Assembly: GCF_002087085.1 (NCBI RefSeq)
Contig: NZ_MWQY01000001.1
Location: 124,001-188,000 of the forward strand
Direction: 5' to 3'
DNA: 64,000 bases
Source: Marispirochaeta aestuarii
GTDB taxonomy: Bacteria > Spirochaetota > Spirochaetia > JC444 > Marispirochaetaceae
The notes beneath the pieces are model-generated. The model saw only the letters and a list, made by a program, of their open reading frames with translations. It did no database searches and was not told the DNA's origin. Positions 12,571 to 35,425 of this stretch are shown here, in pieces; the first letter of the stretch is position 1; every line of letters starts with the position of its first letter. The translations under genes and the position numbers were made by a program.

Positions 12571-12579
12571 GTGGGCCGG

Positions 12580-13167: not shown

Positions 13168-13170
13168 AGA

Positions 13171-16758: not shown

Positions 16759-16914
16759 ATGAAACGAACTGTATTGATGGTGGTGTTGTCCTTACTGACG
16801 GTGTCTCTTCTGAGCGGGTGCATTCATCTGAAGGAATTCACCCAGGAAGAACTGGACAGAATAAGTCTCAATAACACTGTTCAGACAATTCAACCCGTCG
16901 GCGTCGCCGCATAG
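16759..16914 (+). CDS. Small secreted lipoprotein, 51 residues
   Basis: A Lys-Arg N-terminus, a hydrophobic stretch and the lipobox LLSGC (Cys21) predict a type II signal peptide; the mature part would be only about 31 residues (CIHLKEFTQEELDRISL then a Thr/Gln/Val-rich tail). A strong GGAGGAG precedes ATG 16759. Sole gene of its unit, ending in a terminator, behind a consensus promoter with the TetR operator. It resembles the tiny envelope lipoproteins of stress regulons but has no recognisable family. Confidence 0.7.
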   Translation: MKRTVLMVVLSLLTVSLLSGCIHLKEFTQEELDRISLNNTVQTIQPVGVAA

Positions 16915-16934
16915 CAGGATACGCTGATCCCTAC

Positions 16935-16970
16935 GGCCGCCGGTTTTTCCATGCGGCGGCCCGTTTTTTC
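16935..16970 (+). terminator. Rho-independent terminator after the small lipoprotein gene
   Basis: GGCCGCCG (16935-16942) pairs perfectly with CGGCGGCC (16954-16961) around an 11-nt loop, followed by CG and six T. It separates the lipoprotein transcript from tetR. Confidence 0.8.
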
Positions 16971-17039
16971 TGAAAAAAGAGTGCATGCTGTGTATAATAG
17001 ACGGCGAATTGATGTACGTATCGGGATGGAGGACAGGCT

Positions 17040-17675
17040 ATGGGGATTCAGGAACGGAAAGAGCGGGATAAGAAGCGGCGTATCAGCGAGATTATTACCG
17101 CTGCCCGGCAGATTTTTATCTCCAAGGGATATACGGATACCACCATGCTGGACATCGCCGAAAAATCGGAGCTGAGTCGCCGTACCCTTTATCTGTATTT
17201 CAAGAGTAAAGAGGAGATTTCCTTCGCTCTTATGTACAATGCCTTCAGGGAACTCTATAAACGGATTCAGGCCTCCTACGAGGGGGGCGGAACGGGGATG
17301 GAAAAGATCGGACGCCTGAAACGTGCCTACCTCGATTTCTATAAGGATGATTTCGATAACTTCTATTTTACCGTCTATTTCAATGTCAAACTGAATTTGC
17401 GCAACATGGAGCAGGAAGATGCCAGGCGCTGTTTTGACGTGATAGAAAAAATACTCTCCCTCTTTGCCGTTATTCTTGAGGAGGGGACCCGGGACGGCAG
17501 TTTTCGGCCCCTGAAGGACTTCAAGTTGACCGCACTGGTTCTCGGAGAGATGATTCAGGCCTCCATGCAGCAGGTGGCGAGCCAGTATGAGCTTCTGGAG
17601 CGTGCAACAGGAAGAACCCAGGAGGAAATCCTGACCGAGCTCTTCGATTTGTCTATTCATTCCATAATCGCGTAA
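17040..17675 (+). CDS. TetR-family transcriptional regulator
   Basis: 211 residues. The N-terminal helix-turn-helix is canonical: IITAARQIFISKGYTDTTM, then DIAEKSELSRRTLYLYFKSKEE (about 18-60). The C-terminal ligand domain is rich in Phe and Tyr (FYKDDFDNFYFTVYFN), suggesting a hydrophobic effector. It lies between two copies of the CACATAGAGTG operator and precedes the exporter by 96 nt, so it probably represses both the lipoprotein and the exporter operon. TATAAT at 16993-16998 may be its own -10 box. GGATGGAGGA is the ribosome-binding site. Confidence 0.9.
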   Translation: MGIQERKERDKKRRISEIITAARQIFISKGYTDTTMLDIAEKSELSRRTLYLYFKSKEEISFALMYNAFRELYKRIQASYEGGGTGMEKIGRLKRAYLDFYKDDFDNFYFTVYFNVKLNLRNMEQEDARRCFDVIEKILSLFAVILEEGTRDGSFRPLKDFKLTALVLGEMIQASMQQVASQYELLERATGRTQEEILTELFDLSIHSIIA

Positions 17676-17694
17676 ATGATGTAAAGAATAATTC

Positions 17695-17705
17695 ACACCA
17701 TGTGT
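17695..17705 (+). promoter_or_regulatory. Short inverted repeat upstream of the exporter operon
   Basis: ACAC-CAT-GTGT is a perfect 4-bp inverted repeat about 32 nt upstream of the CACATAGAGTG operator copy. Its ACAC/GTGT half-sites match those of the 16698 palindrome, so it could be an auxiliary site with a shorter centre. Confidence 0.3.
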
Positions 17706-17736
17706 TGATCTTTGCAGCGTATGTTTACCTGAATAT

Positions 17737-17755
17737 CACATAGAGTGCATATAAT
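17737..17755 (+). promoter_or_regulatory. TetR operator core plus -10 box of the exporter operon
   Basis: CACATAGAGTG (17737-17747) is identical to the core of the perfect palindrome at 16698-16714, though its outer arms are less symmetric. TATAAT follows at 17750-17755; the best -35 candidate (TTTACC at 17724-17729) has a long 20-nt spacer. The site lies between the -35 and -10 regions. Confidence 0.55.
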
Positions 17756-17771
17756 GCATCAGGAGTTTTTA

Positions 17772-20462: not shown

Positions 20463-20493
20463 CACAGCACTATCTTTTTTAGGAGTTAACAAG

Positions 20494-21264
20494 ATGATCA
20501 AAAGAATCGCAGCAGTTGCAGCAGCAGTAATGATCCCCTTGAGCCTCTTCGGGCTGGACGGTACAGAGATCGCCCGCCGGGCTCATGATATTGAGGATGG
20601 GGACACAAGTCACAGTGCGGTACAGATGGACCTTATCGAGAGTGACGGCGAAGTAAAAAGCCGGCTTATCGAGGAATGGGGCAGGGATGAGGGAGACCTG
20701 ACATCCATGGTAATGGTCTTCCGAAGTCCCGCGTCAGTCAAGGATACCCGGTATCTGCAGATTGAGAACGAGAACAGGGACGATGATAAATGGATCTATC
20801 TGCCGGCCCTGAAGCGGGTGAGGCGTATCGCGTCTTCCGAAGGAGACAAATCCTTTATGGGTTCTGATGCGACCTACGACGACATGGAAACACGGGAAGT
20901 GGAGCGGGACCATCACGAGCTTCTGCGGGAAGAGCGCTTCGAGAAATGGGATTGCCATGTGGTCAAGGCCTGGGCCAAGGACCCTGAAGACAGCCAGTAC
21001 TCCTACCGGATCACATGGTTCGATACAGCGAGTTTTGTTCCGGTAAAAGTCGAGATGTACGATAAGCAGGAGACGCTTCTCAAAGTGCTCAGTGTCGAGG
21101 TGCTGGAGCAGGTTCAGGGCTACTGGACTCCGCTGCAGACTCTGATGGAGAACGTCCAGACCGGTCACGCCACCAGGCTTACCTTCAAGAAGATTGTCTA
21201 TGACGAGCCCCTGCCGGATGCGCTCTTTTCCACCTCTTTCCTGGAAACCGGACGCGTCCGCTAG
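20494..21264 (+). CDS. Outer-membrane lipoprotein-sorting (LolA-like) protein
   Basis: 256 residues; a signal peptide ends near residue 22 (MIPLSLFGLDG). The rest matches the periplasmic LolA-like family found beside MMPL exporters: VFRSPASVKDTRYLQIENEN, DDKWIYLPALKRVRRIASSEGDKSFMGSDATYDD split over residues 85-135, and LTFKKIVYDEPLPDALF. LolA folds shield acyl chains, so a periplasmic lipid or lipoprotein carrier is the natural inference. Strong AGGAG before ATG; 31 nt after the exporter and 11 nt before the barrel gene. Confidence 0.85.
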   Translation: MIKRIAAVAAAVMIPLSLFGLDGTEIARRAHDIEDGDTSHSAVQMDLIESDGEVKSRLIEEWGRDEGDLTSMVMVFRSPASVKDTRYLQIENENRDDDKWIYLPALKRVRRIASSEGDKSFMGSDATYDDMETREVERDHHELLREERFEKWDCHVVKAWAKDPEDSQYSYRITWFDTASFVPVKVEMYDKQETLLKVLSVEVLEQVQGYWTPLQTLMENVQTGHATRLTFKKIVYDEPLPDALFSTSFLETGRVR

Positions 21265-21275
21265 GGAGGAACGGG

Positions 21276-22685
21276 ATGAAACGAATCTTTACAGCCGTGG
21301 TGCCGGTATGTATTTTGGCTTTTGTTCTGATCGTGCCGGTGTCAGCGGATGATTTCAGCTTTGATGAAATAGAAGGTTTTGACGAGGAGGGCGCTGTTAC
21401 AGGCGCCCTCGAGATAGACGGAGAGCTGATCTTCCGCACCCGTGCCTATGTAAGCGAAAAAGCCCTGGAGGATGCCGGCGACCTGTCGGCGGAGGGAGAT
21501 TCCCTTGAGGCCCTGCCCGGCGCACGAATCAATTTCAGTTATGCCGCGGAAAAGGCCGATATCTTCGTCAACCTTTACGCCGATCGTGCAAAGCTGGCTG
21601 AGCATCCGGAAAAACTGCTGGATGAAGCCTGGTTCCGCTATTACGGCAAGGGGTATGAGCTTGAAGCCGGTCTGATGAAAGTCGTCTGGGGTAAGGGCGA
21701 TCAGCTGCATGTCGTCGATTTCCTGAATGCGGATGATCTTTCCGACGCGGTAAACCCGGATTATCTTGACCGGCGACTGGCGACTCCGATGATAAAGCTC
21801 AACCTCTATCCCGGGGAGAGAGGAAAACTGGAGATAGTCTTCCTGCCGACGCTGAGGGCAGACGAGATACCTCTCGAGGGCCCCTGGGCGCCCGGGGATG
21901 CTCAGGCCCTGGCCGGATACGCGGAAACCCTTGTTGATAATCTTGATCCCGATCCCTCCGGACTGGCAGATTTTCTGGACGGTGATGCCCTGTATCCCGA
22001 TACTGATACCCTGGACTATTCCCAGGCTGCCCTGCGATATACCGATACCGTCGGGGCCCTGGATTGGGGCGTCAGCTACTACTATGGCTTCCTGAAACAG
22101 CCCTCAGTCAAGGTAAGCTTTGTGGATCCCCTTGATCCGGCAACCGTGAACGGACTGAAGCTCTCTTACGACCGGGTAAATGCCTTCGGTCTGGAGGCGG
22201 GAGCTGTCTTCGGCGGCTTCAACATGCGGGGTGAGTCGGCCTTGTATCTGAGCGAGGATGCAGACGGAGACGATCCCTATGTTCACAACAGCAGAATGAG
22301 CTGTCTGGCCGGCTTCGATCGGGATCTGCCCTTCAGTAATATGAATATCAATCTTCAATATACCGGGAACCTGGTTTTGGATGACCGGGAGATCGTCCGT
22401 TCGGATGATGTGGATTACGATCCCGACGGTCGCTACTTCAGGCAGCGACTGATCCTGAAGCTCACCGACTCCTGGGACCATGAGATGCTCAAACCGGAAC
22501 TCAAGGGGATATATACCTTCGAAGACCGGGACTATCTGATTGCTCCTGGAATCGTATTCAAGCCGGCGGACAATTTCGAAGTCGAGCTCCAGGCAGGCTT
22601 CTACGGTGGCGAAGAGGATTACACCGATCTGGCGCAGTACGATGATGCGGATTACGTCGAACTTGGATTCACCTGCGCGTTCTAG
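21276..22685 (+). CDS. Outer-membrane beta-barrel protein (DUF1302-like)
   Basis: 469 residues with a signal peptide cleaved near VSADDF (about 25). The body alternates amphipathic strands rich in Tyr/Phe and Asp, and the last residues (DYVELGFTCAF) end in Phe with an outer-membrane beta-signal pattern. AGLMKVVWGKGDQLHVVDFLN near 130-150 resembles the DUF1302-type barrels found with MMPL/LolA-like pairs. Likely the outer-membrane partner of the exporter. GGGAGGAA precedes ATG and a terminator follows, so it ends the operon. Confidence 0.75.
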   Translation: MKRIFTAVVPVCILAFVLIVPVSADDFSFDEIEGFDEEGAVTGALEIDGELIFRTRAYVSEKALEDAGDLSAEGDSLEALPGARINFSYAAEKADIFVNLYADRAKLAEHPEKLLDEAWFRYYGKGYELEAGLMKVVWGKGDQLHVVDFLNADDLSDAVNPDYLDRRLATPMIKLNLYPGERGKLEIVFLPTLRADEIPLEGPWAPGDAQALAGYAETLVDNLDPDPSGLADFLDGDALYPDTDTLDYSQAALRYTDTVGALDWGVSYYYGFLKQPSVKVSFVDPLDPATVNGLKLSYDRVNAFGLEAGAVFGGFNMRGESALYLSEDADGDDPYVHNSRMSCLAGFDRDLPFSNMNINLQYTGNLVLDDREIVRSDDVDYDPDGRYFRQRLILKLTDSWDHEMLKPELKGIYTFEDRDYLIAPGIVFKPADNFEVELQAGFYGGEEDYTDLAQYDDADYVELGFTCAF

Positions 22686-22771: not shown

Positions 22772-24784
22772 CTATTTCAGAAGCTGCCGTACCGAGCGGA
22801 AGCGTCTGATCATGACATCGCTCTCTTTCCGGATCTGCCGTACGAACTCATTCCCGTCAATCGTGCCCAGAACGGCGGTTTTTTCTGCCTCGTTCTGGAA
22901 GTTTACTGTCCTGAAGGGGTCGAGAAAATCTTTGCTGCGGCTTTTATAGACCTCCCCGGCAATCTGCTCCTGAATCTGTTCCGCCGCGGTAAAGAGTCTT
23001 TGCCATCCCGGGGCATCAGGGATATTCCCTTCGAGCAGAAGAAAGCAGGCCCAGGCGTCCCGTATTTTTTCCGCCGGATAGGTCTTATCCCACTTTTCAC
23101 AGCGACGATGGATATCCTGCCATCCCGCCAGGTTTCCGCTGCGGATCTCGTCCCGCAGGAGGTCGACTTTCCGCTCCGGAACCAGCTGTCCTCCCATGTT
23201 GATCCATTCCAGGGGATCCGCCGTATCCGTATCGCCGGGAAGCCCGGCGATCAAACCGGCTCCTTTTTCTTCCAGACCGGGCAGAAGGGTGCTGGCGATG
23301 TAATAGAGAAGCATTTCCCGGTAGGCCTGTCGTGCCGCAGCGGCTTTCAGAATCCGGACTCTCCGCCGGGATCGTTCCACCAGGCCCCGGGGAGCTTCCA
23401 GGTTGTCGGCTTCCCCCGTCGGATCCCACTGGTCAAGAAGTTCCAGGGCGGATCGGATTTCCGCGGCCGTGTCGGGGGCCAGAAAATCAAACTCCAGGTG
23501 CTGACGGGGCTGTATGCGCCTGTCCCTGGCGGCATATTTTCGCGAGTTCCGGACCAGGGCATACATGTTGTAGTTCCACCAGAAGGCGGGGATTATATCA
23601 AGGCACCCGTCATGTTCGTTGTTGTTCACCAGGGAAAAGGGAAGGGGGATGTCCAGTTCCGACGGATAGCTGCCCTTGGCGATCAGGGTGAAGGAGGCGA
23701 ATCTGGAGGGGTGCTTCAGGCTGACGTTCAATCCGGGCCAGAAGCCCCTGCCCGCATGAAGTTCGTTGTCGGCGCTCCGGCTGTTGTGATTCGATCCTAC
23801 GGTTGCCCCGGCGGCCAGATTGCTCTGACCCATGAGCAGGGATGCGATAAGGAAGGAGTTGTTGTGGTGCTGCTCGTGAAAGGGAAAAATCAGGCTGTTG
23901 GAGACTTCGCAGCAGGCAATGGTGGAGTTGTCTCCCACAAAACAGTGGGAGAGACGCAGCCCCTTTGTGAGCGTAACATGGGAGGCCAGAACGAAATCCT
24001 CCGCCATTGCTCCATCGAGAATGCTGCATCCGGGACCGGTAATACCCCTTCGCAGTATGGTACCGAAGCCTATGCTGGTCGGCTCATCCCCGGAAGAATC
24101 AATGCTCAGGTCCTCCAGTACATCCGCTCCCCTGATTCGGCAGAAGCTGCCGATTCGCAGATCGATCAGGCTGCGGCAGCCCTGGATAAAGGTGTTTTCG
24201 CCGATTTCTCCCCTGTCTGATCCGCTGAAGGAGCGGTCTGTAATCTCTTCCAGGCGCCGCATCAGCTCTGAATCCTCCCGGTAACGGGACCAGAGAAAGG
24301 CGTCTGATCCCGTCATTCCGGGGAAGGGCGGTACCCCGCGGTCTCCGGCTTCGTTGATCAGGGAGATGCGCCGACGGGAGGATTCTTCCTCGCCGGGATT
24401 GCGTATTCCGCAGCCGAATTTTGCTCCGGGGCGGGTATAGATCTCCTGTATATCCGAGAGGATGCATCCCTGCCCCAGGTTGAAATTTGCGCAGTACGCC
24501 AGGTTTCTGATTACCGTCTGCCCTCCGATGCGGCAGTCGCGGATTTCGCTGTTGCAGATTCCGACCTCCAGCGTCCTGCCGTCATGACTCCGTCTTTCCG
24601 GATGGAGGCCCTGTATCCTGATCTCTCCGCTGAAGCTGGTGTTTCTGATCAGGTCGGGAAAAAAAGGATCGCAAACAAAAAAGGTGCTCCAGTCTTCCAC
24701 CCTGTTACCGTTGGCAAGGAGCTGCTTTTTCTCTTCCGGGCTGAGCTGCCGGTATTCCTCCGGACCAGGGTTCCGTATAGTCAT
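22772..24784 (-). CDS. DUF4954 family left-handed beta-helix protein
   Basis: 670 residues. From about 60 to 370 it shows hexapeptide-like periodicity (GQTVIRNLAYCANFNLGQG, IGSFCRIRGADVLEDL, NSTIACCEVSNSLIF), as in left-handed beta-helix acyl/nucleotidyl transferases. GSNHNSRSADNELHAGRG is strongly conserved-looking, with His and Asn residues that could form an active site. The C-terminal 250 residues are helical. The family occurs in Bacteroidetes and spirochaetes; its function is unknown to me. Start 6 nt after the FAD-subunit stop, last gene of the NusG-paralogue operon. Confidence 0.8.
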   Translation of the reverse strand: MTIRNPGPEEYRQLSPEEKKQLLANGNRVEDWSTFFVCDPFFPDLIRNTSFSGEIRIQGLHPERRSHDGRTLEVGICNSEIRDCRIGGQTVIRNLAYCANFNLGQGCILSDIQEIYTRPGAKFGCGIRNPGEEESSRRRISLINEAGDRGVPPFPGMTGSDAFLWSRYREDSELMRRLEEITDRSFSGSDRGEIGENTFIQGCRSLIDLRIGSFCRIRGADVLEDLSIDSSGDEPTSIGFGTILRRGITGPGCSILDGAMAEDFVLASHVTLTKGLRLSHCFVGDNSTIACCEVSNSLIFPFHEQHHNNSFLIASLLMGQSNLAAGATVGSNHNSRSADNELHAGRGFWPGLNVSLKHPSRFASFTLIAKGSYPSELDIPLPFSLVNNNEHDGCLDIIPAFWWNYNMYALVRNSRKYAARDRRIQPRQHLEFDFLAPDTAAEIRSALELLDQWDPTGEADNLEAPRGLVERSRRRVRILKAAAARQAYREMLLYYIASTLLPGLEEKGAGLIAGLPGDTDTADPLEWINMGGQLVPERKVDLLRDEIRSGNLAGWQDIHRRCEKWDKTYPAEKIRDAWACFLLLEGNIPDAPGWQRLFTAAEQIQEQIAGEVYKSRSKDFLDPFRTVNFQNEAEKTAVLGTIDGNEFVRQIRKESDVMIRRFRSVRQLLK

Positions 24785-24789
24785 CTGTA

Positions 24790-25647
24790 CTACTCCGAAT
24801 CGTTGAGGATCTGGAGAAACCAGTTCAGGCTGCGCCGTATGCGGTGGACGTTGAATTTGTCCATCTCCGGATGATTCCGTTCGATCTGCTGGTGAAGCAT
24901 CCGCCCCATTTCGAGTCCGTCCTCCGGGGGTATCGGAAGCTTCCTGCCGATGAGTTCCGCCTCGATGTTTCGTGTGCGTATTGTCAGGCGGTTGCCGATG
25001 CAGAAGCTGGTTCTCAGGTCGCTGATCACATCCTTCTGTTTGCGGACCACCCCGCAGAAAATAAAATGCTCCGGTGTAAAGAGCCGTTCCTGCTGACGGA
25101 ACTGCTCCACATCCCAGTCCATAAAGGGGATACGGATTCTTGTTACCAGTTCTCCCGGCTCAAGGAGCGGTCCTTCGTCTCCGCTGATAAAGCGGTTGAG
25201 GTTTACCCAGCGGGTATTGCCGACGCGACGCAGTTCCAGGCGTACATCCAGCAGCAGCAGGACCGGATATGTCGAAAGCCTGTGACTCCGGGCGCAGATG
25301 TTGCCTCCCAGGGTTGCGTGGTTGCGGACCGCGGCGTTACCGATGTTTCTCAGCGCGGCATACAGGGATCTGGGCATGACATGCCGCCCGGTATTGATTA
25401 TTTTGCTTATGGAGACCGCAGGCCCGATTTCCATGTAGCGTTCGGTACGGCTGATCTGGGATAGTTCGGAAACGTGGCCGAGATCGATAAGCTCACCGCC
25501 GAAACCTTCCCTCGGACCTTTGGACAGAAACAGGTAGGTTCCCCCCGCAAAGGGAACAGCCCCGGGGTGGTCCCGGTAATAGGAAAGAAGGTCCTGCAGG
25601 GTCGTCGGGGAGAATACCTTTGTGTTCCTCTGTTTTCTAACTGACAC
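24790..25647 (-). CDS. FAD-binding subunit, molybdenum-hydroxylase type (CoxM/XdhB-like)
   Basis: 285 residues. VPFAGGTYLFLSKG near 35-48 matches the AGGTDL FAD loop, and NHATLGGNICARSH near 110 matches TxGGN, but the Asp that normally follows the second loop is absent. The C-terminal domain (GVVRKQKDVISDLRTSFC) fits the CO-dehydrogenase flavoprotein C-terminal fold. It probably moves electrons from the Fe-S subunit to an acceptor. It overlaps the 2Fe-2S gene by 11 nt. Divergent enough that FAD binding is likely but not certain. Confidence 0.8.
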   Translation of the reverse strand: MSVRKQRNTKVFSPTTLQDLLSYYRDHPGAVPFAGGTYLFLSKGPREGFGGELIDLGHVSELSQISRTERYMEIGPAVSISKIINTGRHVMPRSLYAALRNIGNAAVRNHATLGGNICARSHRLSTYPVLLLLDVRLELRRVGNTRWVNLNRFISGDEGPLLEPGELVTRIRIPFMDWDVEQFRQQERLFTPEHFIFCGVVRKQKDVISDLRTSFCIGNRLTIRTRNIEAELIGRKLPIPPEDGLEMGRMLHQQIERNHPEMDKFNVHRIRRSLNWFLQILNDSE

Positions 25648-26116
25648 GGTGCCGGTTCCTTCGCAGACGGCCGGTGTATTGAACCGCCTTCAGGTAGGTA
25701 CGAAAATCGGTACAGCGGCACTTTACGGCCCGATAGTATTCGGCAATCTCTTCCTCTCCCGGGTTCGGGGATATCTCCAGCAGGGCATGGGTGGTCAATA
25801 TTCTGCCTGCGGCGCAGAACCGGCATGGTGAAAGCCCCGCTTCCCGAAAGCCTGCCAGGACCTCCTTGTAGGCGTGCTGCTTGGCGAAACCCTCGATGGT
25901 GGTAACCCTCATTCCCCGTACCCGGAAGAGGGGAGTCATACAGGAGTGGAATATCTCCCCGTTTATCAGGACTATACAGGAGCCGCACTCCCCGGAATAG
26001 CAGCTGGCATGGGTCCCTATCAGGTGGTAACGCTCCCGCAGCACATTGATCAGTCTGGTGTCAGCCTCGGCGTCAACGGTTTCTGAACTACCGTTCAACA
26101 TGAACTGAATTCTCAT
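25637..26116 (-). CDS. 2Fe-2S subunit, molybdenum-hydroxylase type (CoxS/XdhC-like)
   Basis: 159 residues with both Fe-S motifs: plant-type CYSGECGSC plus a later Cys (FHSC), then PCRFC and VKCRC in the helical domain. All eight expected cysteines are present. The residue before the third motif is Pro, where canonical subunits have Gln (QCGFC) touching the molybdopterin cofactor. That fits the unusual catalytic subunit next door. Its ATG overlaps the large-subunit stop by 4 nt. Confidence 0.85.
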   Translation of the reverse strand: MRIQFMLNGSSETVDAEADTRLINVLRERYHLIGTHASCYSGECGSCIVLINGEIFHSCMTPLFRVRGMRVTTIEGFAKQHAYKEVLAGFREAGLSPCRFCAAGRILTTHALLEISPNPGEEEIAEYYRAVKCRCTDFRTYLKAVQYTGRLRRNRHRVS

Positions 26117-28143
26117 GTCCCCTCCATATACTGGTGAATATTTCTTGGGGGAAGGGGAAAGCGGTCAAAATAGACCCCCGCCGCCTGACTCAGGGCGGCG
26201 GTGAATGCGGGGGGAATCATGATGTAGGGCAGATCTCCGATACCGGAGGAAAACTTCTGCCGGGAACCGCGGTTGAAGCTGATTTCCACCGGGGGTATGT
26301 CCTTGAGCTTCGGGAGATGAAATGGGGATTCCGAGGTTTCCAGATTCTGCAGGTTTACCGTGCAGCCTTCCACAGCATGCAGGATGCCGGTTTCCAGGAC
26401 GCTTTCGGCCCGGTGGCGGTGGAGAACTTCGCCGCAGTCCACAGCCACCCAGACCCCCCGAACGCTCTTTTCCAGCAGTATGGGATCGAGTTCCAGTTCC
26501 ACCACGCAGGCCGCCCAGCTTCTGGCGGCATAGGGACTTCCCTGAAGCTGGGATTCCTCCCAGCGCCCTTTCGCGGGTAGCCTGAACGACCTGGAGGCTT
26601 CTAGGGGCAGGGGGTTCCGGAAGCGTTTTTTCTGAATGGCCTCGCAGCATCGCTCCACCAGCCGGTACACCACCGTGATGTTTCTGGAAAGTCCCGACGG
26701 CCCGCTCTCCGGAATGCGGTCGGTGTCGTCATTGATGATATGGACCCCGCTCCGGGGAATCCCCAGGATTTCCGCCGCCCGGCGCCGTGCGAGGGATGCT
26801 GTTTTATGCATACCCGAAAGGCCGGAGGTAAAGATGTAGAGGTCTCCTTCCGACTCCAGCCGGGCTGTGACTTTGAAGCGTTCTGTCTCTTCTCCCCGTC
26901 CGAAGAAGCCGTTCCCCTGATAGACCCCGGCGATTCCGATTCCCCGGAGAGGACGGTTTTCCTGCTCGGGACTGCTGCGCCGTTTTTTCGCCAGCTCGTA
27001 GGCGGCATGTTTGCGGCTGAAATCCGAAGCCGCAGCGACTTTGGTGAGGAGTTCCGGCAGAGGGCTCTCCTTTTCATCCAGGTTCCGGAGCTTCCAGTTG
27101 AGAGGATCCGTCTGGGATACCTCGGCTATCAGGCTGGCATGGGTCTCGGAGGCAAAGAAACAGCCCGCAAGACCCGCTCCCGGAGAAAAGTCCAGGGGGC
27201 GCCGGGTTGTTTCTATGAGCCGGGTTGTAACGGAGACGTTTTTGCAGTTGTAGTTTCCCGCCGCCGCCGAGGAAGCCCTCTGCAGGGCTTCTTCGGAATA
27301 GACGGGGAAGGCCCCGGATTCAAGGTTAACCGTCACGTCGATGGCAGCCAGGTCGCCGTTCTTGTCCACCGCGGAGCGATGTTCTATGGCCACCGGGGTC
27401 CCCCGGGGACCGTGATGGAGGAGCTCATTGGCGCTGAGGATCAGTTTGCAGCTTTTTCCGGAAACCTGTGCCGCCAGGGCCGCGTAGGCCGCCAGAAAGG
27501 AGGGGTACCAGAGTTTCTCGTCAAACTGGGCGCTGAAGGCGGTGCGGCGTACGGTAACATCGGTCGGTCGTATATCAAGAACTCCGGCTACCGTTGATCG
27601 CACATGGTGCAGCCACTGGGTAGACGAGTAGACCACGAGGCGTCCTTCTTCATAACGGGCGAATGCTCCCTGGGCATCCAGGGACCAGGGGAGGGTTTCG
27701 TCCACATAATAACTGCCCTCGAGGATCTGAAAGGCCTCCTTCAGAACCTTTTCGGGGTTTCCCCGGCTGAGTCGATGCTCTTTGATGATCTGTTTCTCGA
27801 AAAAGTTCTCGAAAGAAGGCAGCACCGTAATGTCCCGGTAATCGATGCTTACATAGCCGGCGAACTCTTCCATCTCCTGCCGGTTATTGCCGGCGATCAG
27901 GAGCACCGGCTGGCCGAGGTAGTGGATTGTTCCTTCCGCCAGAATGGGGATTTTTCCCGAGGAGAGGTGGATACAGTTCTCTCCCGGAATATCCTGGGCC
28001 CCCAGCACGAGCATTCCGTCGGGGGGGTCAGGGTAGCTGATCAGGTTGATTTTACCCCGTTCAACCTGGGATCGCAGGATGGATACATGGAGCATGGGGG
28101 AGTCGAAGTAGTCGTCTATGTACTGAATGCGCCGTTGTTCCAT
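26113..28143 (-). CDS. Divergent xanthine-dehydrogenase-like large subunit with altered Moco motifs
   Basis: 676 residues, shorter than the usual 750-plus. Family layout is visible: hammerhead domain with GQPVLLIAGNN, STQWLHHVRSTVAGVL, RGTPVAIEHRSAVDKNG. Three active-site signatures differ: the VGGGFGGK loop reads RTAFSAQFDEK, the AYRGxG loop reads SPGAGLAG, and the catalytic Glu motif GEPP reads GIGDLP near residue 640. The protein may therefore bind an altered cofactor or be a non-catalytic paralogue; I infer this and cannot decide. 8 nt after the aminotransferase gene and overlapping the 2Fe-2S gene. Confidence 0.75.
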   Translation of the reverse strand: MEQRRIQYIDDYFDSPMLHVSILRSQVERGKINLISYPDPPDGMLVLGAQDIPGENCIHLSSGKIPILAEGTIHYLGQPVLLIAGNNRQEMEEFAGYVSIDYRDITVLPSFENFFEKQIIKEHRLSRGNPEKVLKEAFQILEGSYYVDETLPWSLDAQGAFARYEEGRLVVYSSTQWLHHVRSTVAGVLDIRPTDVTVRRTAFSAQFDEKLWYPSFLAAYAALAAQVSGKSCKLILSANELLHHGPRGTPVAIEHRSAVDKNGDLAAIDVTVNLESGAFPVYSEEALQRASSAAAGNYNCKNVSVTTRLIETTRRPLDFSPGAGLAGCFFASETHASLIAEVSQTDPLNWKLRNLDEKESPLPELLTKVAAASDFSRKHAAYELAKKRRSSPEQENRPLRGIGIAGVYQGNGFFGRGEETERFKVTARLESEGDLYIFTSGLSGMHKTASLARRRAAEILGIPRSGVHIINDDTDRIPESGPSGLSRNITVVYRLVERCCEAIQKKRFRNPLPLEASRSFRLPAKGRWEESQLQGSPYAARSWAACVVELELDPILLEKSVRGVWVAVDCGEVLHRHRAESVLETGILHAVEGCTVNLQNLETSESPFHLPKLKDIPPVEISFNRGSRQKFSSGIGDLPYIMIPPAFTAALSQAAGVYFDRFPLPPRNIHQYMEGT

Positions 28144-28151
28144 ACAGCCCT

Positions 28152-29330
28152 TTATTCCGCTTTACAACCATTCTTGACCGCCTGTATCACCCTGTCAACC
28201 TGGGCATCGTTCATACCCGGATAGATGGGCAGGCTCAGGCAGCGGGAATAGGCATCCATGGCATTGGGAAAGTCTCCGGGAGAAAAGGCGTAGCGGTCCC
28301 GGTAGTAGGGCATCAGATGGAGGGGGATGTAGTGAACGGAGGTGCCGACACCCCGGCGTCGCAGGGATTCAATCAGATTGTCCCGGTTTATCCGGGAATC
28401 CCGGGATACCTTGAGGATGTAGAGATGCCAGGCATGGTCCCCGGAGGTCCGGGGTATATCCAGTTCAGGCATCTCCCGGAAGGCTTCGGTATAGGCTGCG
28501 GCAATCTCCTTTCTGCGGGCGAGAAAGGTCTCCGCTTTTTCCAGCTGGACCCTGCCCAGGGCCGCCGCCAGGTCGGTCATGTTGTACTTGTACCCCGCTT
28601 CCACCACCGAGTAGGCCCACTGGGCCCTGTCCGAGGTGTAGCGGTCCCATATACTGCGGTCGATTCCATGGAGACGCATGGTACGTATGCGTTCGGCGAT
28701 TTTATCGTTGTCCGTCACAACCATACCGCCTTCGCCGGTGGTTATGGTCTTGGTTGCGTAGAAGGAGTATACCCCGGTATCTCCCGATGTTCCTGTCCAG
28801 CGGCCGTCGTCAGATCTGACCGGAAAAGCGTGGGCGGCGTCTTCGACAATGGCGAGGCCGAACTCTCCGGCGATACTTTGAAGTTCCGTCATCCCGCAGG
28901 CTTCGCCGCCGATATGCACAGGTATGAGGGCCTTGAGTCTGTGGCCGTTTTTTTCTGCAGCACGGAGGGTTTCCCGCAGAATCCGGGGGTCGATATTGAA
29001 GCCTCCGGGAGTGATGTCCGAAAAGACGAGCTCCGCCCCCAGGTAGCGTACAACCTCGGCGGTGGCGGTAAAGGTGTAGGGACTGGTCACCACGGTGTCG
29101 CCGGGGCCGATACCCAGGGCTTCCAGGGAGAGGTGCAGTCCCGCGGTGGCGGAATTGAGGGCCAGGGCGCAGGTGCTGCCCACTTTCGAGGCGAACTCCG
29201 CCTCGAAGGCCTGAGTCTCTTTTCCGGTGGTAAGCCAGCCGGAGCGCAGGACCTTCAGCACCGCCTCCTCTTCTTCCCGGCCGATGGAGGGCAGGGCAAA
29301 GGGGATAAACTCAGTACCGGGGTTCGTCAT
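28152..29330 (-). CDS. DegT/DnrJ/EryC1/StrS sugar aminotransferase
   Basis: PLP enzyme that aminates keto-sugar nucleotides, typically the product of a 4,6-dehydratase as encoded just upstream. 392 residues: SGWLTTGKETQAFE, SPYTFTATAE, VEDAAHAFP with the PLP-binding Asp, and YATKTITTGEGGM with the Schiff-base Lys near 195. The start MTNPGTEF (29330) overlaps the dehydratase 3' end by 20 nt; the longer reading from 29417 runs deep into that gene and is less likely. The pairing suggests an amino-deoxysugar for glycoconjugates. Confidence 0.9.
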   Translation of the reverse strand: MTNPGTEFIPFALPSIGREEEEAVLKVLRSGWLTTGKETQAFEAEFASKVGSTCALALNSATAGLHLSLEALGIGPGDTVVTSPYTFTATAEVVRYLGAELVFSDITPGGFNIDPRILRETLRAAEKNGHRLKALIPVHIGGEACGMTELQSIAGEFGLAIVEDAAHAFPVRSDDGRWTGTSGDTGVYSFYATKTITTGEGGMVVTDNDKIAERIRTMRLHGIDRSIWDRYTSDRAQWAYSVVEAGYKYNMTDLAAALGRVQLEKAETFLARRKEIAAAYTEAFREMPELDIPRTSGDHAWHLYILKVSRDSRINRDNLIESLRRRGVGTSVHYIPLHLMPYYRDRYAFSPGDFPNAMDAYSRCLSLPIYPGMNDAQVDRVIQAVKNGCKAE

Positions 29331-30786
29331 CGGGGACCTCGAAGCTTGGAATATGCCTCGCCAGGGTGGAACGGAGGACCCGGCGGTCACGGAAGGTTTC
29401 GGGCTTGAGGGGATCAAAGAAACAGACCGGCTTCAGGTCACGGATCAGATCATCCAGGCTGCCCGTGATTCTGCTGCGATGCCTGAGTCTCAGAATCCGC
29501 TGAAAATCGGTGGCCTCCCCGGTTTCACCTTCCGCCCACAGTCGTTCGCTCAGTTTTTCCCCCTGCCGGAGGCCGATGTAATTAATGGGAATATCCGTTC
29601 CCGGTTCGTACCCGTAAAAACGGATCATCTGCTCCGCCAGCTCCCGTATGGGTACCGGTTCTCCCATATCCAGTACGTAGAGATCCCCTCCGGTTCCCAG
29701 ACCTCCCGATTTCAGCACCAGGGAGACGGCTTCGGGGATCGTCATGAAGTAACGGGTTGCCCTGGGGTCCGTGATGGTTACCGGTCCCCCTTTGAGAATC
29801 TGCTTCTTGAAGAGGGGCACGATGCTTCCCCGGCTGTCCAGTACGTTTCCGAAACGGACAACCATAAAGTGCTGATCGCCGTTGTTCCTGGCGAGGGCGA
29901 GCTCTTCGGATATCATCTTGGAGGCGCCGTATACATAACGGGGTTCCACCGCCTTGTCGGTGGAGATCAGTACCAGCCTGGGCACAGCGCTTTCCCGCAC
30001 CGCCTCCACCAGATGGAGGGTCCCGAAAACGTTGTTCTTGATTACCTCTACGGGATTGCTCTCCGCCATGGGAACGTGCTTGTAGGCGGCACAGTGAAAA
30101 ATAATGTCCGCCTTGAGGCGCTGGATTATGAAGCGGGTATATTCCCTGTCCTTGAGGTCTCCCACCACCGGTACCAGGGTGGCCTTTTCTCCGACTCCCT
30201 CTTCCTGGAGGATCTTCAGCTCCTTTTCAATCTCATAGACGTTGTTCTCGCCGTTGTCGAAAAGGTAGAGACGTTCCGCCCCCGCGGACAGGAGCTGCCG
30301 GGAAAGTTCCGAACCGATGCTTCCCCCCGCACCGGTTATCAATACCCGCTTGTCCCGCAGGTAACTGAGGGTCTCCTTAAGGGGAATACGGACGGGTGTG
30401 CGTCCAAGAAGATCTTCCACGGCAATCTCCCTGGTCTGTATCAGATGAGCGTCGCCGTCGATTATCTGTGCCAGGTTGGGAAGAATGCGGATGCGGTCAA
30501 AGGAAGCGGAAGAGAGATGTTCGTAGATGGTCGTGAGCTGGTCGTTCGTGGCTCCCGGAATTGCGATCAGGGCCTCATCCGCGGGACGGGTCTCAAAAAT
30601 TTTGCTGATACGGGCAATGGGGCCCAGAACGGGGATATCATCAACCTTGGTGCCGATTTTCCCGGGATCATCGTCCAGGAAGGCGACAAGCCGGCCAAAG
30701 GTTCCCTTGGTCTTTATCTCTTCCGCGATTTTGCGGCCTGCGAAGCCTGCGCCCACTATATATATGGTTCTACCGCTTTTTTGCAT
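29311..30786 (-). CDS. Nucleoside-diphosphate-sugar 4,6-dehydratase/epimerase, CapD/FlaA1-like
   Basis: 491 residues without the N-terminal membrane helices of WbpM/PglF proteins. It has an N-terminal CoA-binding-like Rossmann domain (IYIVGAGFAGRKIAEEI), then the SDR domain with GAGGSIGSELSRQL near 155, ISTDKAVEPRYVYGASK near 285, and IGLRQGEKLSERLW. The catalytic YxxxK is intact (Tyr where many membrane dehydratases have Met), which is closer to FlaA1-type enzymes. Probable product: a UDP-4-keto-6-deoxy-hexose for the next enzyme. Starts 2 nt after the NusG-like gene. Confidence 0.87.
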   Translation of the reverse strand: MQKSGRTIYIVGAGFAGRKIAEEIKTKGTFGRLVAFLDDDPGKIGTKVDDIPVLGPIARISKIFETRPADEALIAIPGATNDQLTTIYEHLSSASFDRIRILPNLAQIIDGDAHLIQTREIAVEDLLGRTPVRIPLKETLSYLRDKRVLITGAGGSIGSELSRQLLSAGAERLYLFDNGENNVYEIEKELKILQEEGVGEKATLVPVVGDLKDREYTRFIIQRLKADIIFHCAAYKHVPMAESNPVEVIKNNVFGTLHLVEAVRESAVPRLVLISTDKAVEPRYVYGASKMISEELALARNNGDQHFMVVRFGNVLDSRGSIVPLFKKQILKGGPVTITDPRATRYFMTIPEAVSLVLKSGGLGTGGDLYVLDMGEPVPIRELAEQMIRFYGYEPGTDIPINYIGLRQGEKLSERLWAEGETGEATDFQRILRLRHRSRITGSLDDLIRDLKPVCFFDPLKPETFRDRRVLRSTLARHIPSFEVPDDEPRY

Positions 30787-30788
30787 TC

Positions 30789-31334
30789 CTATTTTTCTTC
30801 TTCCGATGATGTTTCGATCAGTTCAAAACCGAAATCTACCATAAAAGAGTCTTCGTACATATTCAAGCGGACTTTCGCCCTTCGTTTTCGTCTGTCCACT
30901 TTGATAATTCTGCCTTCAAGGCCTTTCAGGGGGCCTTCCTTGACCTGTATCCGGTTGTTCTCATCAAAGCGTACCTTTGACGCCGCAACCGTTTCCCCGT
31001 GCTCGAGAAAATGGAGGAGTGTCCGGCGGTCTTCCCCGTGGAGGGGTTCGATGTTGGTGTTCGACTTGAGAAACTTGTAAATCCCCTGAACGGGCCGCAG
31101 GGCCCAGTAGACCTCCGGTTCCAGCTTCTCAGCTTCAATGAAGAGATATCCCGGGTAGATTGCGGTGGTTTCCTTCCGCGTTTTTCCCCGCCGTCGGATC
31201 ATAAGGGTTCGCTGAGGGAAAAGCAGACGTCCATAGTTCTCTTCATCCAGTCCCGCCACGCGCATCGCCGCCCGGGCAAGTTTGAGGGCCCTGGCTTCTC
31301 CCCGGGTTTGAACCTGCAGTACAAAATACTCCAT
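30789..31334 (-). CDS. NusG paralogue (RfaH/LoaP/UpxY-type antiterminator)
   Basis: 181 residues from MEYFVLQVQ: an NGN domain with AIYPGYLFIEAEKL and LRPVQGIYKFL, and a C-terminal KOW domain (VKEGPLKGLEGRIIKVDRRKRRAKV). Housekeeping NusG normally sits in the secE/rplK region, so this is a specialised paralogue. Such proteins usually head a polysaccharide operon and help RNA polymerase through it; that fits its place as first gene here. The start has no clear Shine-Dalgarno. A weak promoter (TTGATC at 31375-31370, TAATGT at 31351-31346) would leave a leader of about 5 nt. Confidence 0.85.
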   Translation of the reverse strand: MEYFVLQVQTRGEARALKLARAAMRVAGLDEENYGRLLFPQRTLMIRRRGKTRKETTAIYPGYLFIEAEKLEPEVYWALRPVQGIYKFLKSNTNIEPLHGEDRRTLLHFLEHGETVAASKVRFDENNRIQVKEGPLKGLEGRIIKVDRRKRRAKVRLNMYEDSFMVDFGFELIETSSEEEK

Positions 31335-31415
31335 TGATGATGGGCACATTACCACGGATATGGAAAAGCGATCAAGTCGGAAAAAAAGCAGTCGATACTA
31401 GAACCGGAGGTATCC

Positions 31416-31946
31416 ATGGTTCGTCGTTTGCCAGGCATCGTGTTAGTTCTTGTCTTCTGCGGGGCTGCTCTTTACAGTGATGCGGTTCTTATTTTCACCA
31501 CCAATTCCCTGGATCCTGAACGTCTGTCGGTGATGGAACTGCAGTCGGCCGTGGAGGACGGAGCAATGGCGGCGCTCTTCGACGCAGGACACATTGTGTT
31601 CAATGCCGGAGTGGTTGCCGGGAATCCCAGGTTGAAGGGGCCTTCCGACAGACTCTCCATGAGGATGGCAAAAAGCGGCGGAGCCCTCTTTTTACTGGAG
31701 ATCGATCTGCTTTACGAAGAGCCTGAAACAGACGAGGAACAACTGAATGCCCCTTCGGCGCAGTATCGTCTTTATGATGTTATGCAGGATACGCTGCTGA
31801 CCCAGGGGAGCCTTTCCCCCGGGGATGTCAGGAACCGTGAGGATGCCGGTCCGGAAGAACTCAGTACAGCCCTTGGCAGTGCCATCGCCGATCATGCGGT
31901 TTCGATGCTGCGGCGTCAGGGAAACGGGGAGGCCGGCGATGTATGA
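31416..31946 (+). CDS. Hypothetical secreted protein
   Basis: 176 residues with an N-terminal hydrophobic signal (LPGIVLVLVFCGAALYSDA), probably cleaved near residue 22 and periplasmic. No lipobox is obvious, since the Cys lies inside the hydrophobic core. The rest is acidic, with no family I recognise; AVEDGAMAALFDAGHIVFNAG resembles small periplasmic domains but is not diagnostic. GGAGG precedes ATG. It is 15 nt before the SPOR-domain gene, so the pair is probably co-transcribed. Confidence 0.7.
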   Translation: MVRRLPGIVLVLVFCGAALYSDAVLIFTTNSLDPERLSVMELQSAVEDGAMAALFDAGHIVFNAGVVAGNPRLKGPSDRLSMRMAKSGGALFLLEIDLLYEEPETDEEQLNAPSAQYRLYDVMQDTLLTQGSLSPGDVRNREDAGPEELSTALGSAIADHAVSMLRRQGNGEAGDV

Positions 31947-31961
31947 TGAGGAGACAAATGT

Positions 31962-33329
31962 ATGATCAGGACGACAGCTAAAGTTCTTATATTCAGCATA
32001 TTATTCTCTCTGATTTCCTTTTCCCTTTTTTCTCAGTCCGAATGGGAGGGTACCACCGCCATGGGACGCTATGGGGAGTTTCCTTCCTCGGGGCTCTACG
32101 GGGCCTCCAATTCCTTTCCCCGGAATACCCTGGTGGAGGTGGAGAACCTGGAGACAGGTATGTCCGCCACCGTTCTCATTGTCGATCGTCTGGATGATCC
32201 GGGGCTGTTTCTGCTTCTTTCCCGGGAGGCTGCCGAGAATCTCGGCATCGAGGATGACCAGATCGTCCGGTCCCGGGTACAACTGGCGGATAACTCACGG
32301 CGTCTTTCCATAGAGGACAAGGACCGTCCCTATCATCCCGACCCGGATATCAACCCCGGTGCGGAGGATGAGCTCTCCTTCCTGGACCGCTACGCGGCTA
32401 CAGAGGCTGCACCCGGGACAGCGCCTGTTCCCCCGGCAGCCCTGGCTGTTGTTCCGCCGGAACCGGAAGAGACCGGGGATACAGAAGAGTCCCCGGCCCG
32501 ACCTGAACCCGAAGCAGCAGCTGAAGCGCCTCCGGCGGTGGTGGCGGACATCGCAGTGGAGCCGGAGCCTGAACCTGAGGCCCCTGAATTGACCGAAACT
32601 GCCGAACTGGACGAAGGACCTCGTGTTGAAGAGCTCGTGGCCACCGCCCCGGAAGAGGATGTCCCGGATCTTCCCCTGGCCGAACCGGAGCTGAAGGACC
32701 AGGCAGTCGCAATGGGAATAACGGACAACCTCTACGGTGCGGCTCCCGGCGAGGAGGAACTCGCACTGGGCGAGCTCCCGGTACCTTCCGAGGCTGCTGA
32801 ACGGGAAGCCGCCATTGCCGAGCAGTTTCCCCTGCCTCAGCCCCCCTACAACGGAGAAGAGGAGAGCTTCGTTGCCGCCGTTCCACGGCTGATCGAGGAA
32901 CCCCGGCTGGAAGCTGAAGAGGAGCCCGCGGAAGAAGAGATGGCCGCCGCACCTGCGGAGGAGCCTCAGGGCGAGACCGTGGTGGTGCTGGAACCCGCGG
33001 AAGCCCGGCCGCCTGAACCCTCTGAAGGGGAGGAGTCGAAGGCCTTGGTCCAGGCTGAAAAGGAAGAGGTCGAAACCCTGGATGTGCCCACGGCTCTTCA
33101 GGTTGAACCCGACTCCCTCTATCTTCAGCTGGGGGTCTACACCTCGCCGGTAAGCGCCGAATCCACGGCGGCACGTTTTAAAGGTACCTATCCGGTGCTG
33201 GTATTGAATCAGGATAACGCCTATTATAAGGTTCTGGTCGGTCCCTTATCGCCGGATGAAAGCGGAGCCCTCCTGATGAACTTCAGGGCCAGGGGGTTTC
33301 GGGACGCCTTTATCCGCAAAGGGTACTGA
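31962..33329 (+). CDS. RlpA-like/SPOR-domain envelope protein with a long acidic linker
   Basis: 455 residues. A signal peptide (VLIFSILFSLISFSLFSQ) is followed by a beta-barrel domain of the RlpA type (GLYGASNSFPRNTLVEVEN, near 40-105). Residues about 130-370 form a Pro/Glu/Ala-rich, low-complexity linker. The end (LYLQLGVYTSPVSAES to the terminal RKGY) is a SPOR domain, which binds denuded septal peptidoglycan. A role in septum cleavage or cell-wall remodelling is a reasonable inference. GAGGAG lies before ATG 31962. ligA follows after 29 nt. Confidence 0.8.
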   Translation: MIRTTAKVLIFSILFSLISFSLFSQSEWEGTTAMGRYGEFPSSGLYGASNSFPRNTLVEVENLETGMSATVLIVDRLDDPGLFLLLSREAAENLGIEDDQIVRSRVQLADNSRRLSIEDKDRPYHPDPDINPGAEDELSFLDRYAATEAAPGTAPVPPAALAVVPPEPEETGDTEESPARPEPEAAAEAPPAVVADIAVEPEPEPEAPELTETAELDEGPRVEELVATAPEEDVPDLPLAEPELKDQAVAMGITDNLYGAAPGEEELALGELPVPSEAAEREAAIAEQFPLPQPPYNGEEESFVAAVPRLIEEPRLEAEEEPAEEEMAAAPAEEPQGETVVVLEPAEARPPEPSEGEESKALVQAEKEEVETLDVPTALQVEPDSLYLQLGVYTSPVSAESTAARFKGTYPVLVLNQDNAYYKVLVGPLSPDESGALLMNFRARGFRDAFIRKGY

Positions 33330-33358
33330 CAGAATAAACCGGAGAACAAGAGAGACTG

Positions 33359-35425
33359 ATGCCGGACCCGAAACAGGAAATAGACTCGTTATCGGAAAAG
33401 CTGCTTGCATGGCAGCACGAATATTACCAGCTGGCCCGGCCCTCGGTCTCCGATACCGAGTACGACCGGGTTTTTGATCGTCTTCAGGAGCTCGAAAAGA
33501 AGCATCCCGAACTCAAAAAGCCGGATTCTCCCACCCTCAGGGTGGGAAGCGATCTTTCCGCAGAACTCCCGGAGGTCGAGCATACCATTCCCGTCCTGAG
33601 TCTCGACAAGGCCTACAGCGCTGCGGAGGTGGATGCCTGGGTAGCCAAGACCGCGAAAAATGCCGAGGAAGAGCTCTCCTTCGTCGTGGAGGAGAAGATC
33701 GACGGGGCCTCCATCGTTCTTTATTACGAGAACGGGGTCCTGGCCAGGGGAGTTACCCGGGGTAACGGCCGGGTGGGCAACGATGTAAGCGCCAATATCC
33801 GCACAATCCGCTCGGTACCTCTGCGGCTTTCGCAGCCCGTCTCCATCGCCGTCCGGGGAGAGGTTTTTCTGCCCCTGGACCGTTTTGACGAGATCAACGC
33901 CGAGCAGGAGGTTCCCTTCGCGAATCCCCGCAACCTGGCGGCGGGCACCCTGCGGCGCAAGAAGAGCAGCGAGGTTGCCCGGGTGCCCCTGGAAATCTTC
34001 GTCTACGAAGGCTATATGTCCGGCAGCGAAGAAGAGCCCTTCGATCAGCACCACCTTGTCCTGGATTACCTGCTGAGCCTCGGTTTCAAGGTCAATCCCC
34101 GGCTGGGGATTTTCGGGTCCGCCTGTGAAGGCCCGGTTTTCCGTACCGGCAGCGGACTTGAGTTCTCTTCAGGACCCCTTGAAGCAGTGGGCCCTTTCCT
34201 GGAACGCATGAACCGGGGGCGGAGCGGTCTTGGCTATGAAATCGACGGTCTGGTGATCAAGGTGAACGAGCTTGCCCCCCGGGAGCGTCTCGGCTATACC
34301 GGTCACCATCCCCGCTGGGCCATCGCCTACAAGTTCGAGTCCCCCCAGGCTGTAAGCACCGTGGAAAGCATCGATGTCCAGGTCGGCCGTACCGGGAGAA
34401 TTACCCCGGTGGCCAGAATAAAGCCGGTCAGAATCGGAGGATCCACGGTCTCCAACGTTACCCTGCACAATCAGCAGTACATCGAAGCCCTTGAGCTGTC
34501 CGCGGGAGACCAGGTGGCGGTTTCCAAACGGGGAGACGTTATTCCCGCGGTGGAGAAGGTGATAGAAAAGGGTGAATCCTCCGCCCCCGTATGGGCGATG
34601 CCCGAAACCTGTCCCTCCTGCGGGGAGGACTTGAGTCTCCGGGGGGCCCACCACTTCTGTACCAACCGGCGCTGCCCCGACCAGGTACGGGGAAGGATCA
34701 ACTTCTTTATTGCCCGGGACCAGATGGACATCGACGGGCTGGGGCCGGAAACCGCCGCCGTTCTGATGGACGAGGGCCTTGTCGCCGGGATCGAGGATCT
34801 CTACACCTTCGAAACCGAAAAGCTGAACGGGCTTCCCGGTTTCGGCGAGAAAAAGATCGACCTTATACGCCGGGGAATTGAAGAGAGTAAAAAGCGCCCG
34901 TTCAGGATCGTTCTCCCCAGCCTGGGGATTCCGGACCTGGGGCAGAAGGCCGCGGAGCTGCTGATAGAGGCAGGCTTTCGGGATATCGACTCCCTCCTCG
35001 AGGCTGCGGATAACAGGCAGGAGGAAAGACTGGCGGAAATTCACGGCATCGGCGAAAAAACGGCGGCCTCGATTCTCGAGAGTCTCCGGGACCCGGAAAT
35101 CCGGGGACAGATCGATGCCCTCCGCAGAGCAGGACTGAATTTCCGTGAAGAAGAAACGGAAACCCATCGGCAGCTGCCCCGGATCTTCGAAGGCCAGGTC
35201 TGGTGCGTTACCGGGAGCTTTGAAAACTTCAAACCTCGTTCAAAGGCCATGGAAGAGGTCAAACTCAGGGGAGGCCGGGCTGTGGGTTCCATTACGGGCT
35301 CTGTAAGCCATCTTCTTGCCGGGGAGGGTGCCGGAAGCAAGCTGAAGAAGGCCCGGGAGCTGGGAATCCGGATTGTCGACGAGGATGAGTTCCTGAAACT
35401 CCTGGGACCGGAGAGGGAATCCTGA
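33359..35425 (+). CDS. ligA: NAD-dependent DNA ligase LigA
   Basis: Seals nicks in replication and repair using NAD. 688 residues: Ia domain with YYQLARPSVSDTEYD, adenylation domain with the nucleophilic Lys in VEEKIDG near 112, OB fold (GRTGRITPVA), four-Cys zinc finger (CPSCG then CTNRRC, near 417-440), HhH repeats, and a C-terminal BRCT domain (VWCVTGSF to the end). Length and order are typical. ATG 33359 follows GGAGAACAAGAG. The stop overlaps the next ATG by one base. Confidence 0.96.
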   Translation: MPDPKQEIDSLSEKLLAWQHEYYQLARPSVSDTEYDRVFDRLQELEKKHPELKKPDSPTLRVGSDLSAELPEVEHTIPVLSLDKAYSAAEVDAWVAKTAKNAEEELSFVVEEKIDGASIVLYYENGVLARGVTRGNGRVGNDVSANIRTIRSVPLRLSQPVSIAVRGEVFLPLDRFDEINAEQEVPFANPRNLAAGTLRRKKSSEVARVPLEIFVYEGYMSGSEEEPFDQHHLVLDYLLSLGFKVNPRLGIFGSACEGPVFRTGSGLEFSSGPLEAVGPFLERMNRGRSGLGYEIDGLVIKVNELAPRERLGYTGHHPRWAIAYKFESPQAVSTVESIDVQVGRTGRITPVARIKPVRIGGSTVSNVTLHNQQYIEALELSAGDQVAVSKRGDVIPAVEKVIEKGESSAPVWAMPETCPSCGEDLSLRGAHHFCTNRRCPDQVRGRINFFIARDQMDIDGLGPETAAVLMDEGLVAGIEDLYTFETEKLNGLPGFGEKKIDLIRRGIEESKKRPFRIVLPSLGIPDLGQKAAELLIEAGFRDIDSLLEAADNRQEERLAEIHGIGEKTAASILESLRDPEIRGQIDALRRAGLNFREEETETHRQLPRIFEGQVWCVTGSFENFKPRSKAMEEVKLRGGRAVGSITGSVSHLLAGEGAGSKLKKARELGIRIVDEDEFLKLLGPERES

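Follow-up and report, generated by a model that had tools for sequence, protein, structure and literature searches.

A class-wide spirochaete operon joins nucleotide-sugar genes to a xanthine dehydrogenase-like trimer whose molybdenum-cofactor motifs are lost

Gene organization and conservation of the operon

The window, a stretch of 64,000 nucleotides (nt) from Marispirochaeta aestuarii (contig NZ_MWQY01000001.1, positions 124,001 to 188,000), harbors a close array of seven genes at 22772 to 31334: a NusG paralogue, two nucleotide-sugar genes, the three subunits of a protein related to xanthine dehydrogenase (XDH) and a DUF4954 gene. The large XDH-like subunit has lost the motifs that bind the molybdenum cofactor (Moco). 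The window genome (G000; genomes, loci and families are cited by working numbers) comprises 4.2 Mb in 78 contigs. All seven genes lie on the minus strand in the order given by a preliminary description of the sequence, and profile searches match its family names:

30789..31334, minus strand: LoaP-type NusG paralogue (NCBIfam NF033641 antiterm_LoaP, 143.3 bits; cut-off 125)
29311..30786, minus strand: CapD, a soluble uridine diphosphate N-acetylglucosamine (UDP-GlcNAc) 4,6-dehydratase-like protein of the WlaL/PglF type (Polysacc_synt_2, 353 bits)
28152..29330, minus strand: DegT, a PseC-like sugar aminotransferase dependent on pyridoxal 5'-phosphate (PLP) (DegT_DnrJ_EryC1, 402 bits)
26113..28143, minus strand: XDH-like large subunit, without a Moco pocket (Pfam MoCoBD_1 and MoCoBD_2 folds)
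25637..26116, minus strand: [2Fe-2S] subunit with 8 of 8 cluster cysteines (Fer2 and Fer2_2)
24790..25647, minus strand: flavin adenine dinucleotide (FAD) subunit with intact AGGT and TLGGN motifs (Pfam FAD_binding_5)
22772..24784, minus strand: DUF4954 protein, probably co-transcribed here and outside the conserved unit (PF16314, 178 bits)

Two starts differ from those in the list of open reading frames (ORFs): LoaP begins at the ATG at 31334, not at the GTG at 31355, and DegT at the ATG at 29330, which overlaps the CapD stop, not at the TTG at 29417. The junctions are tight, with gaps of 2 nt (LoaP/CapD), 8 nt (DegT/XDH) and 5 nt (FAD/DUF4954) and overlaps of 20 nt (CapD/DegT), 4 nt (XDH/2Fe-2S) and 11 nt (2Fe-2S/FAD). 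A sigma-70-like match occurs at 28198-28170, between degT and the XDH gene. The region holds 6 such matches in total, against 5.2 expected in shuffled sequence; because they are no commoner than in shuffled sequence, this match gives no reason to posit an internal promoter.

A search for the large subunit covered 393 genomes of the phylum, and the neighborhoods of 40 matches were fetched and mapped. The operon-type set consists of 39 loci, including that of a Treponema metagenome-assembled genome (MAG) and leaving out three canonical paralogues; loci were picked from the best matches and then across families, and the counts are not unbiased frequencies. CapD-DegT-XDH-FeS-FAD is contiguous in 28 of the 39 relatives and DegT-XDH-FeS-FAD in 4 more, while the remaining 7 loci carry the trimer without CapD or DegT alongside. 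LoaP comes first in the operon in 23 of the 42 first-mapped loci and leads most full operons. The six-gene order and spacing recur in many genera and families, at large-subunit identities of 25-37%. LoaP, CapD, DegT and the large, 2Fe-2S and FAD subunits thus constitute a class-wide conserved spirochaete operon, which is ancient and spans most treponeme-like spirochaetes, the syphilis bacterium apparently included. The operon proposed in the preliminary description is upheld for these six genes; DUF4954 falls outside it.

Loss of the molybdenum-cofactor site

The large subunit aligns to the aldehyde oxidoreductase of Desulfovibrio desulfuricans (1dgj, E 1e-22). At the cofactor site, the window protein reads FSAQFDEK where canonical members have GGxFGGK, and likewise FSPGAG for FRGFG, SGMHK for GQG and GD for GE. 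The same positions have changed across the 45 operon-type sequences compared: the GGxFGGK loop is lost in all 45, with its key glycines kept in 2-4; the Arg of FRGFG is kept in none and the Gln of GQG in one. The catalytic-loop Glu (GxGE), an Asp in the window, is kept in 22. Scaffold positions are retained in 41-45 of the 45 (A646, G571, G401 and G277 in 44-45). The first loop is often swapped for a conserved LDGKLWYPSL-like stretch, which suggests that it has been remodelled. The protein, previously described as a degenerate molybdo-hydroxylase, is more thoroughly altered than that term implied, every examined Moco-binding motif being lost.

Eighteen intact spirochaete paralogues hold the Moco motifs almost without exception, and none of the 18 lies beside CapD, DegT or LoaP. 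In a phylogenetic tree, a single branch with support of 100 in the Shimodaira-Hasegawa-like approximate likelihood ratio test (SH-aLRT) parts the 45 Moco-less from the 18 intact sequences; long branches and uneven composition make detail within the clade uncertain. The Moco-less type also includes four more loci that were fetched subsequently; plasmid matches are distant members of the XDH family. Contig C16 of the window genome (L034, 16412-19876; L035, 4216-7086) also encodes a canonical XDH trimer that retains its Moco motifs, together with another XDH-like protein, 956 aa long, that has the partly altered motifs GGGYGSK, AYQGYG and SVSE, GGGYGSK being the first loop in L035.

The operon-type subunits evolve under constraint. 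In pairs of close relatives, the ratio of nonsynonymous to synonymous substitution rates (dN/dS) is 0.09-0.19 for the large subunit, and most other operon genes have similar or lower values; a value of 0.43 for the 2Fe-2S subunit in one pair results from an over-extended start and is disregarded. These ratios rule out a pseudogene and mark the large subunit as a working protein rather than a decaying one. The firmest result is one class-wide clade of XDH descendants that are without a Moco pocket and are retained under selection.

The supply of cofactor was assessed in 38 genomes, among them G118, a control outside the class that carries only canonical XDH and has both MoaC and MoeA. MoaC is absent in 20 of the 38 and MoeA in 24. 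Nine of the MoaC-less genomes are single contigs (G056, G288, G281, G019, G356, G194, G311, G130, G203), and nearly all MoaC-less genomes carry the Moco-less XDH type. The catalytic-loop Glu persists in MoaC-less G194, G311, G130 and G359, so its retention does not reflect Moco use. The window genome itself has MoaC and MoeA and makes Moco. Four treponemes with an XDH-like protein of about 900 aa have MoaC and no MoeA (G276, G354, G369) or neither (G288); their Moco pathway may be incomplete or divergent.

CapD, DegT and flagellin glycosylation

Among solved structures, CapD best matches WlaL of Campylobacter jejuni (E 7e-72). The catalytic residues D277 and K278 (D-K) and Y286 and K290 (YxxxK) are invariant in 29 of 29 operon copies. 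The PseC model scores 382.6 bits on DegT, below its cut-off of 423.5, and CapD also falls below the PseB equivalog cut-off. The PLP lysine of DegT, K223 in the numbering of the TTG ORF, is present in 33 of 33 sequences. Dehydrases that use pyridoxamine 5'-phosphate (PMP) carry a His at this position. A PMP-dependent 3-dehydrase role for DegT, supplied by the FAD and 2Fe-2S proteins, was considered and rejected because the lysine is present.

Operon CapD, scored at E <= 1e-135, occurs in 124 of the 393 genomes, all 124 of which are flagellin-positive, and in none of the 41 flagellin-less genomes (family f12, genus g13 of f9 and two genomes of f13). Outside family f5, 124 of the 138 flagellated genomes in the class have it, a hand count from two lists. 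Maf-type glycosyltransferases (PF01973) and strong NeuB matches go with the operon (67 genomes); G056, for instance, has one NeuB and four Maf matches. In the flagellin-less genomes tested, Maf is absent save for one weak match in G250. The flagellated f5 genomes, which are presumably Borrelia-like, jointly lack CapD, NeuB and Maf. NeuB is located 7-10 kb from the operon in G063, G321, G343, G380, G367 and G121 (loci L070, L063, L065, L055, L057 and near L083), and in the two treponemes examined the interval contains queA, ruv genes and yebC.

The 450.2 Da glycan of Treponema denticola belongs to the nonulosonic acids and bears an unusual acyl group. The flagellins of this species carry the 450.2 Da glycan, which is essential for filament assembly and motility (PMC9481697). 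The distribution of CapD and DegT suggests that both track flagellin glycosylation, a conclusion with good support that falls short of proof.

Function of the trimer and relation to known systems

We explain the region as a class-wide operon of three modules, behind which one unrelated gene, DUF4954, has landed. The first module is LoaP, probably an antiterminator for its own or another operon. The second, CapD followed by DegT, would perform the first two nucleotide-sugar steps (4,6-dehydration and 4-amination) and may supply the nonulosonic-acid glycan that Maf-type enzymes attach to flagellin, as their co-occurrence suggests. The third is a heterotrimer that descended once from XDH and lost the Moco pocket and the catalytic loop, while selection preserved its flavin subunit and, in most lineages, both [2Fe-2S] clusters. 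It most likely acts as a molybdenum-free flavin/iron-sulfur oxidoreductase, in which NAD(P)H or a substrate would exchange electrons with FAD, the clusters would carry electrons and the former Moco domain would bind a substrate or a partner protein. Of this account, the loss of Moco binding and the action of selection are demonstrated, and the route of the electrons and the substrate are inferred. The trimer is probably a former molybdenum enzyme that has evolved to do without the metal, and the explanation in three modules is the one we favor, with some confidence. Its boldest form, in which XDH was turned a single time into a molybdenum-free flavin/iron-sulfur enzyme catalyzing a new reaction, kept across the class including the agent of syphilis and perhaps serving an unusual group on the flagellar sugar, is put forward tentatively.

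Several observations weigh against this explanation. The co-occurrence behind the second module amounts to about four independent losses. The UNCG hairpin, the known LoaP target, was not found near the window LoaP, and two short candidates were found in 23 relatives; the target could lie in another operon. Structure prediction of the large subunit from a two-row alignment gave a predicted local distance difference test (pLDDT) score of 33 and was set aside. Ligands of the FAD-side cluster are lost in G056, G276 and G288 and those of the other cluster in G293 and the Treponema MAG, while both clusters are affected in G356 and G130; losses of this kind imply that a complete electron chain cannot be universal. 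Finally, the trimer persists without the sugar genes: in flagellum-less G238, G266, G318 and G372 it directly follows LoaP, with CapD and DegT gone from between, and in G281 and G224, also flagellum-less, it lies beside LigA without LoaP, CapD or DegT. This persistence weakens the case for an action on the flagellar sugar.

The last point bears most on the proposal that the trimer works as an enzyme in the flagellar nonulosonic-acid pathway, where it might, for instance, catalyze a redox step on the sugar or its unusual N-acyl group. The trimer adjoins DegT in 32 of the 39 relatives, an XDH match (not necessarily always of the Moco-less type) occurs in 122 of the 124 genomes with operon CapD, and NeuB lies close by in the six genomes named above. 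However, because the six flagellum-less genomes keep the trimer without CapD, it has a use independent of the flagellar glycan, and a pathway enzyme is possible but somewhat doubtful. The data fit common regulation, or a helpful but dispensable link, better than a strict single pathway. The single pathway suggested by the close coupling of the genes is accordingly not established, since CapD and DegT track flagellin glycosylation and the trimer outlasts both in flagellum-less genomes.

A second, serious rival takes the trimer for a non-catalytic remnant, either a scaffold or a regulatory complex, whose redox centers are now dispensable. As would be expected of such a remnant, several lineages have lost cluster ligands step by step, with both clusters gone in G130, and the fast-evolving large subunit has long tree branches. 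In L073 (G276), L072 (G056) and L066 (G130) the cysteines are lost though the 2Fe-2S gene is intact in the operon. The window 2Fe-2S subunit, by contrast, has C39, C44, C47, C59, C98, C101, C133 and C135, and all 8 cysteines are kept in 32 of the 39 operon-type copies (35 of 42 counting the canonical ones). FAD motifs are mostly intact across operon-type copies, and dN/dS is low in all reliably compared subunits. We regard the remnant as unlikely. A redox complex is the likely state in most lineages; from sequence, it is not provable for all.

Adjacency of the seven genes by chance, or plain co-transcription with no common function, is improbable for the operon as a whole and does hold for DUF4954. 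Several treponemes have LoaP-CapD relocated as a pair, apart from DegT-XDH-FeS-FAD, which would suit such an account, but the six genes otherwise keep their order and spacing over many families despite the low identity of their large subunits. DUF4954 occurs in none of the 39 relatives within the stretch fetched near the XDH genes; where both were located, it sits on another contig or far away (0.52 Mb versus 1.87 Mb in G212). It is thus separate from the NusG, CapD and DegT genes, whereas the XDH genes are not. The suggestion that it is a transferase-like partner in the pathway is not sustained, its similarity to left-handed β-helix (LbH) proteins being weak and below cut-off as well. Downstream, dnaE directly follows the FAD gene in about 11 relatives; in the window, dnaE-yggT-recG (10501-16587) is separated from it by DUF4954 and by genes for an RND-type transporter, a LolA-like protein, a weakly DUF1302-like protein and a 268-aa protein that no Pfam family matches (16890-22685). 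This looks most simply like an insertion or rearrangement in the lineage of the window. Across relatives, the genes 3' of the FAD gene (dnaE-yggT-recG, 3-dehydroquinate synthase, TP_methylase or PilZN3) vary by family and look incidental. On the other side, the divergent plus-strand genes at 31416-35425, for a 176-aa protein, a SPOR-domain protein and LigA, keep their synteny in many relatives; the region around loaP is therefore old as a whole.

That the trimer is a working molybdenum hydroxylase binding Moco through an altered pocket is very improbable: the fold, the Glu in 22 of the 45 sequences and the MoaC and MoeA genes of the window's own genome would allow it, but the remaining Moco contacts are lost throughout the clade, the Glu is independent of Moco supply and the MoaC-less genomes, nine of them single contigs, nearly all carry the Moco-less type.

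Each module has known counterparts. LoaP has already been reported in Spirochaetota beside biosynthetic operons (PMC12691694). The window protein, above the NCBIfam cut-off, resembles the LoaP antiterminators of Bacillus velezensis; it differs in that no UNCG hairpin was found near its gene, and in its XDH/sugar cargo, of which we found no description. The sugar pairs PglF/WlaL-PglE and PseB-PseC, known with NeuB and Maf, likewise combine a 4,6-dehydratase with a 4-aminotransferase, and NeuB and Maf occur in the same genomes as the operon; the difference is that the window genes score below the PseB and PseC equivalog cut-offs.

In Treponema pallidum the operon presumably lies within TP0077-TP0081, the numbers of its genes other than TP0079 and TP0081 being presumed from gene order. 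TPASS_0079 and TPASS_0081 have been annotated as xanthine dehydrogenase (PMC4403809). We found no literature on TP0077-TP0081 or on a Moco-free XDH. G056 is apparently T. pallidum-like, since the position of its DUF4954 gene agrees with the published one (PMC6953169). It carries CapD-DegT-XDH-FeS-FAD contiguously and, unlike the window genome, has no LoaP, MoaC or MoeA. The operon is thus retained in a genome of 1.14 Mb, where little stays without use, and CapD and DegT are the likely two-gene source of its flagellar glycan.

Orphan molybdoproteins, chiefly of the dimethyl sulfoxide reductase (DMSOR) and xanthine oxidase (XO) families, occur in several hundred genomes without complete Moco synthesis; the survey describing them found nothing in their sequences to set them apart and asked that their use of molybdenum or tungsten be tested (PMC6147048). 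The spirochaete trimer is similar in being an XO-family protein in genomes without complete Moco synthesis. It differs in forming a single clade with clear loss of the Moco pocket. The clade gives the orphan question a clear mark in the loss of every Moco contact, along with a single origin, control sequences in the intact paralogues and testable species. For its members, the database labels xanthine dehydrogenase or quinoline oxidoreductase would mislead.

With the heterotrimeric XO family itself, the operon shares three subunits, the gene order large/2Fe-2S/FAD, the MoCoBD folds, two [2Fe-2S] clusters and FAD_binding_5. By descent, the window protein is a member of that family; as a molybdoenzyme it would not be, the GGxFGGK loop, the Arg of FRGFG, GQG and the Glu of GxGE all being replaced. 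In contrast to the rest of the family, its clade is without the Moco loops, occurs in genomes that lack Moco synthesis and stands beside sugar genes and LoaP.

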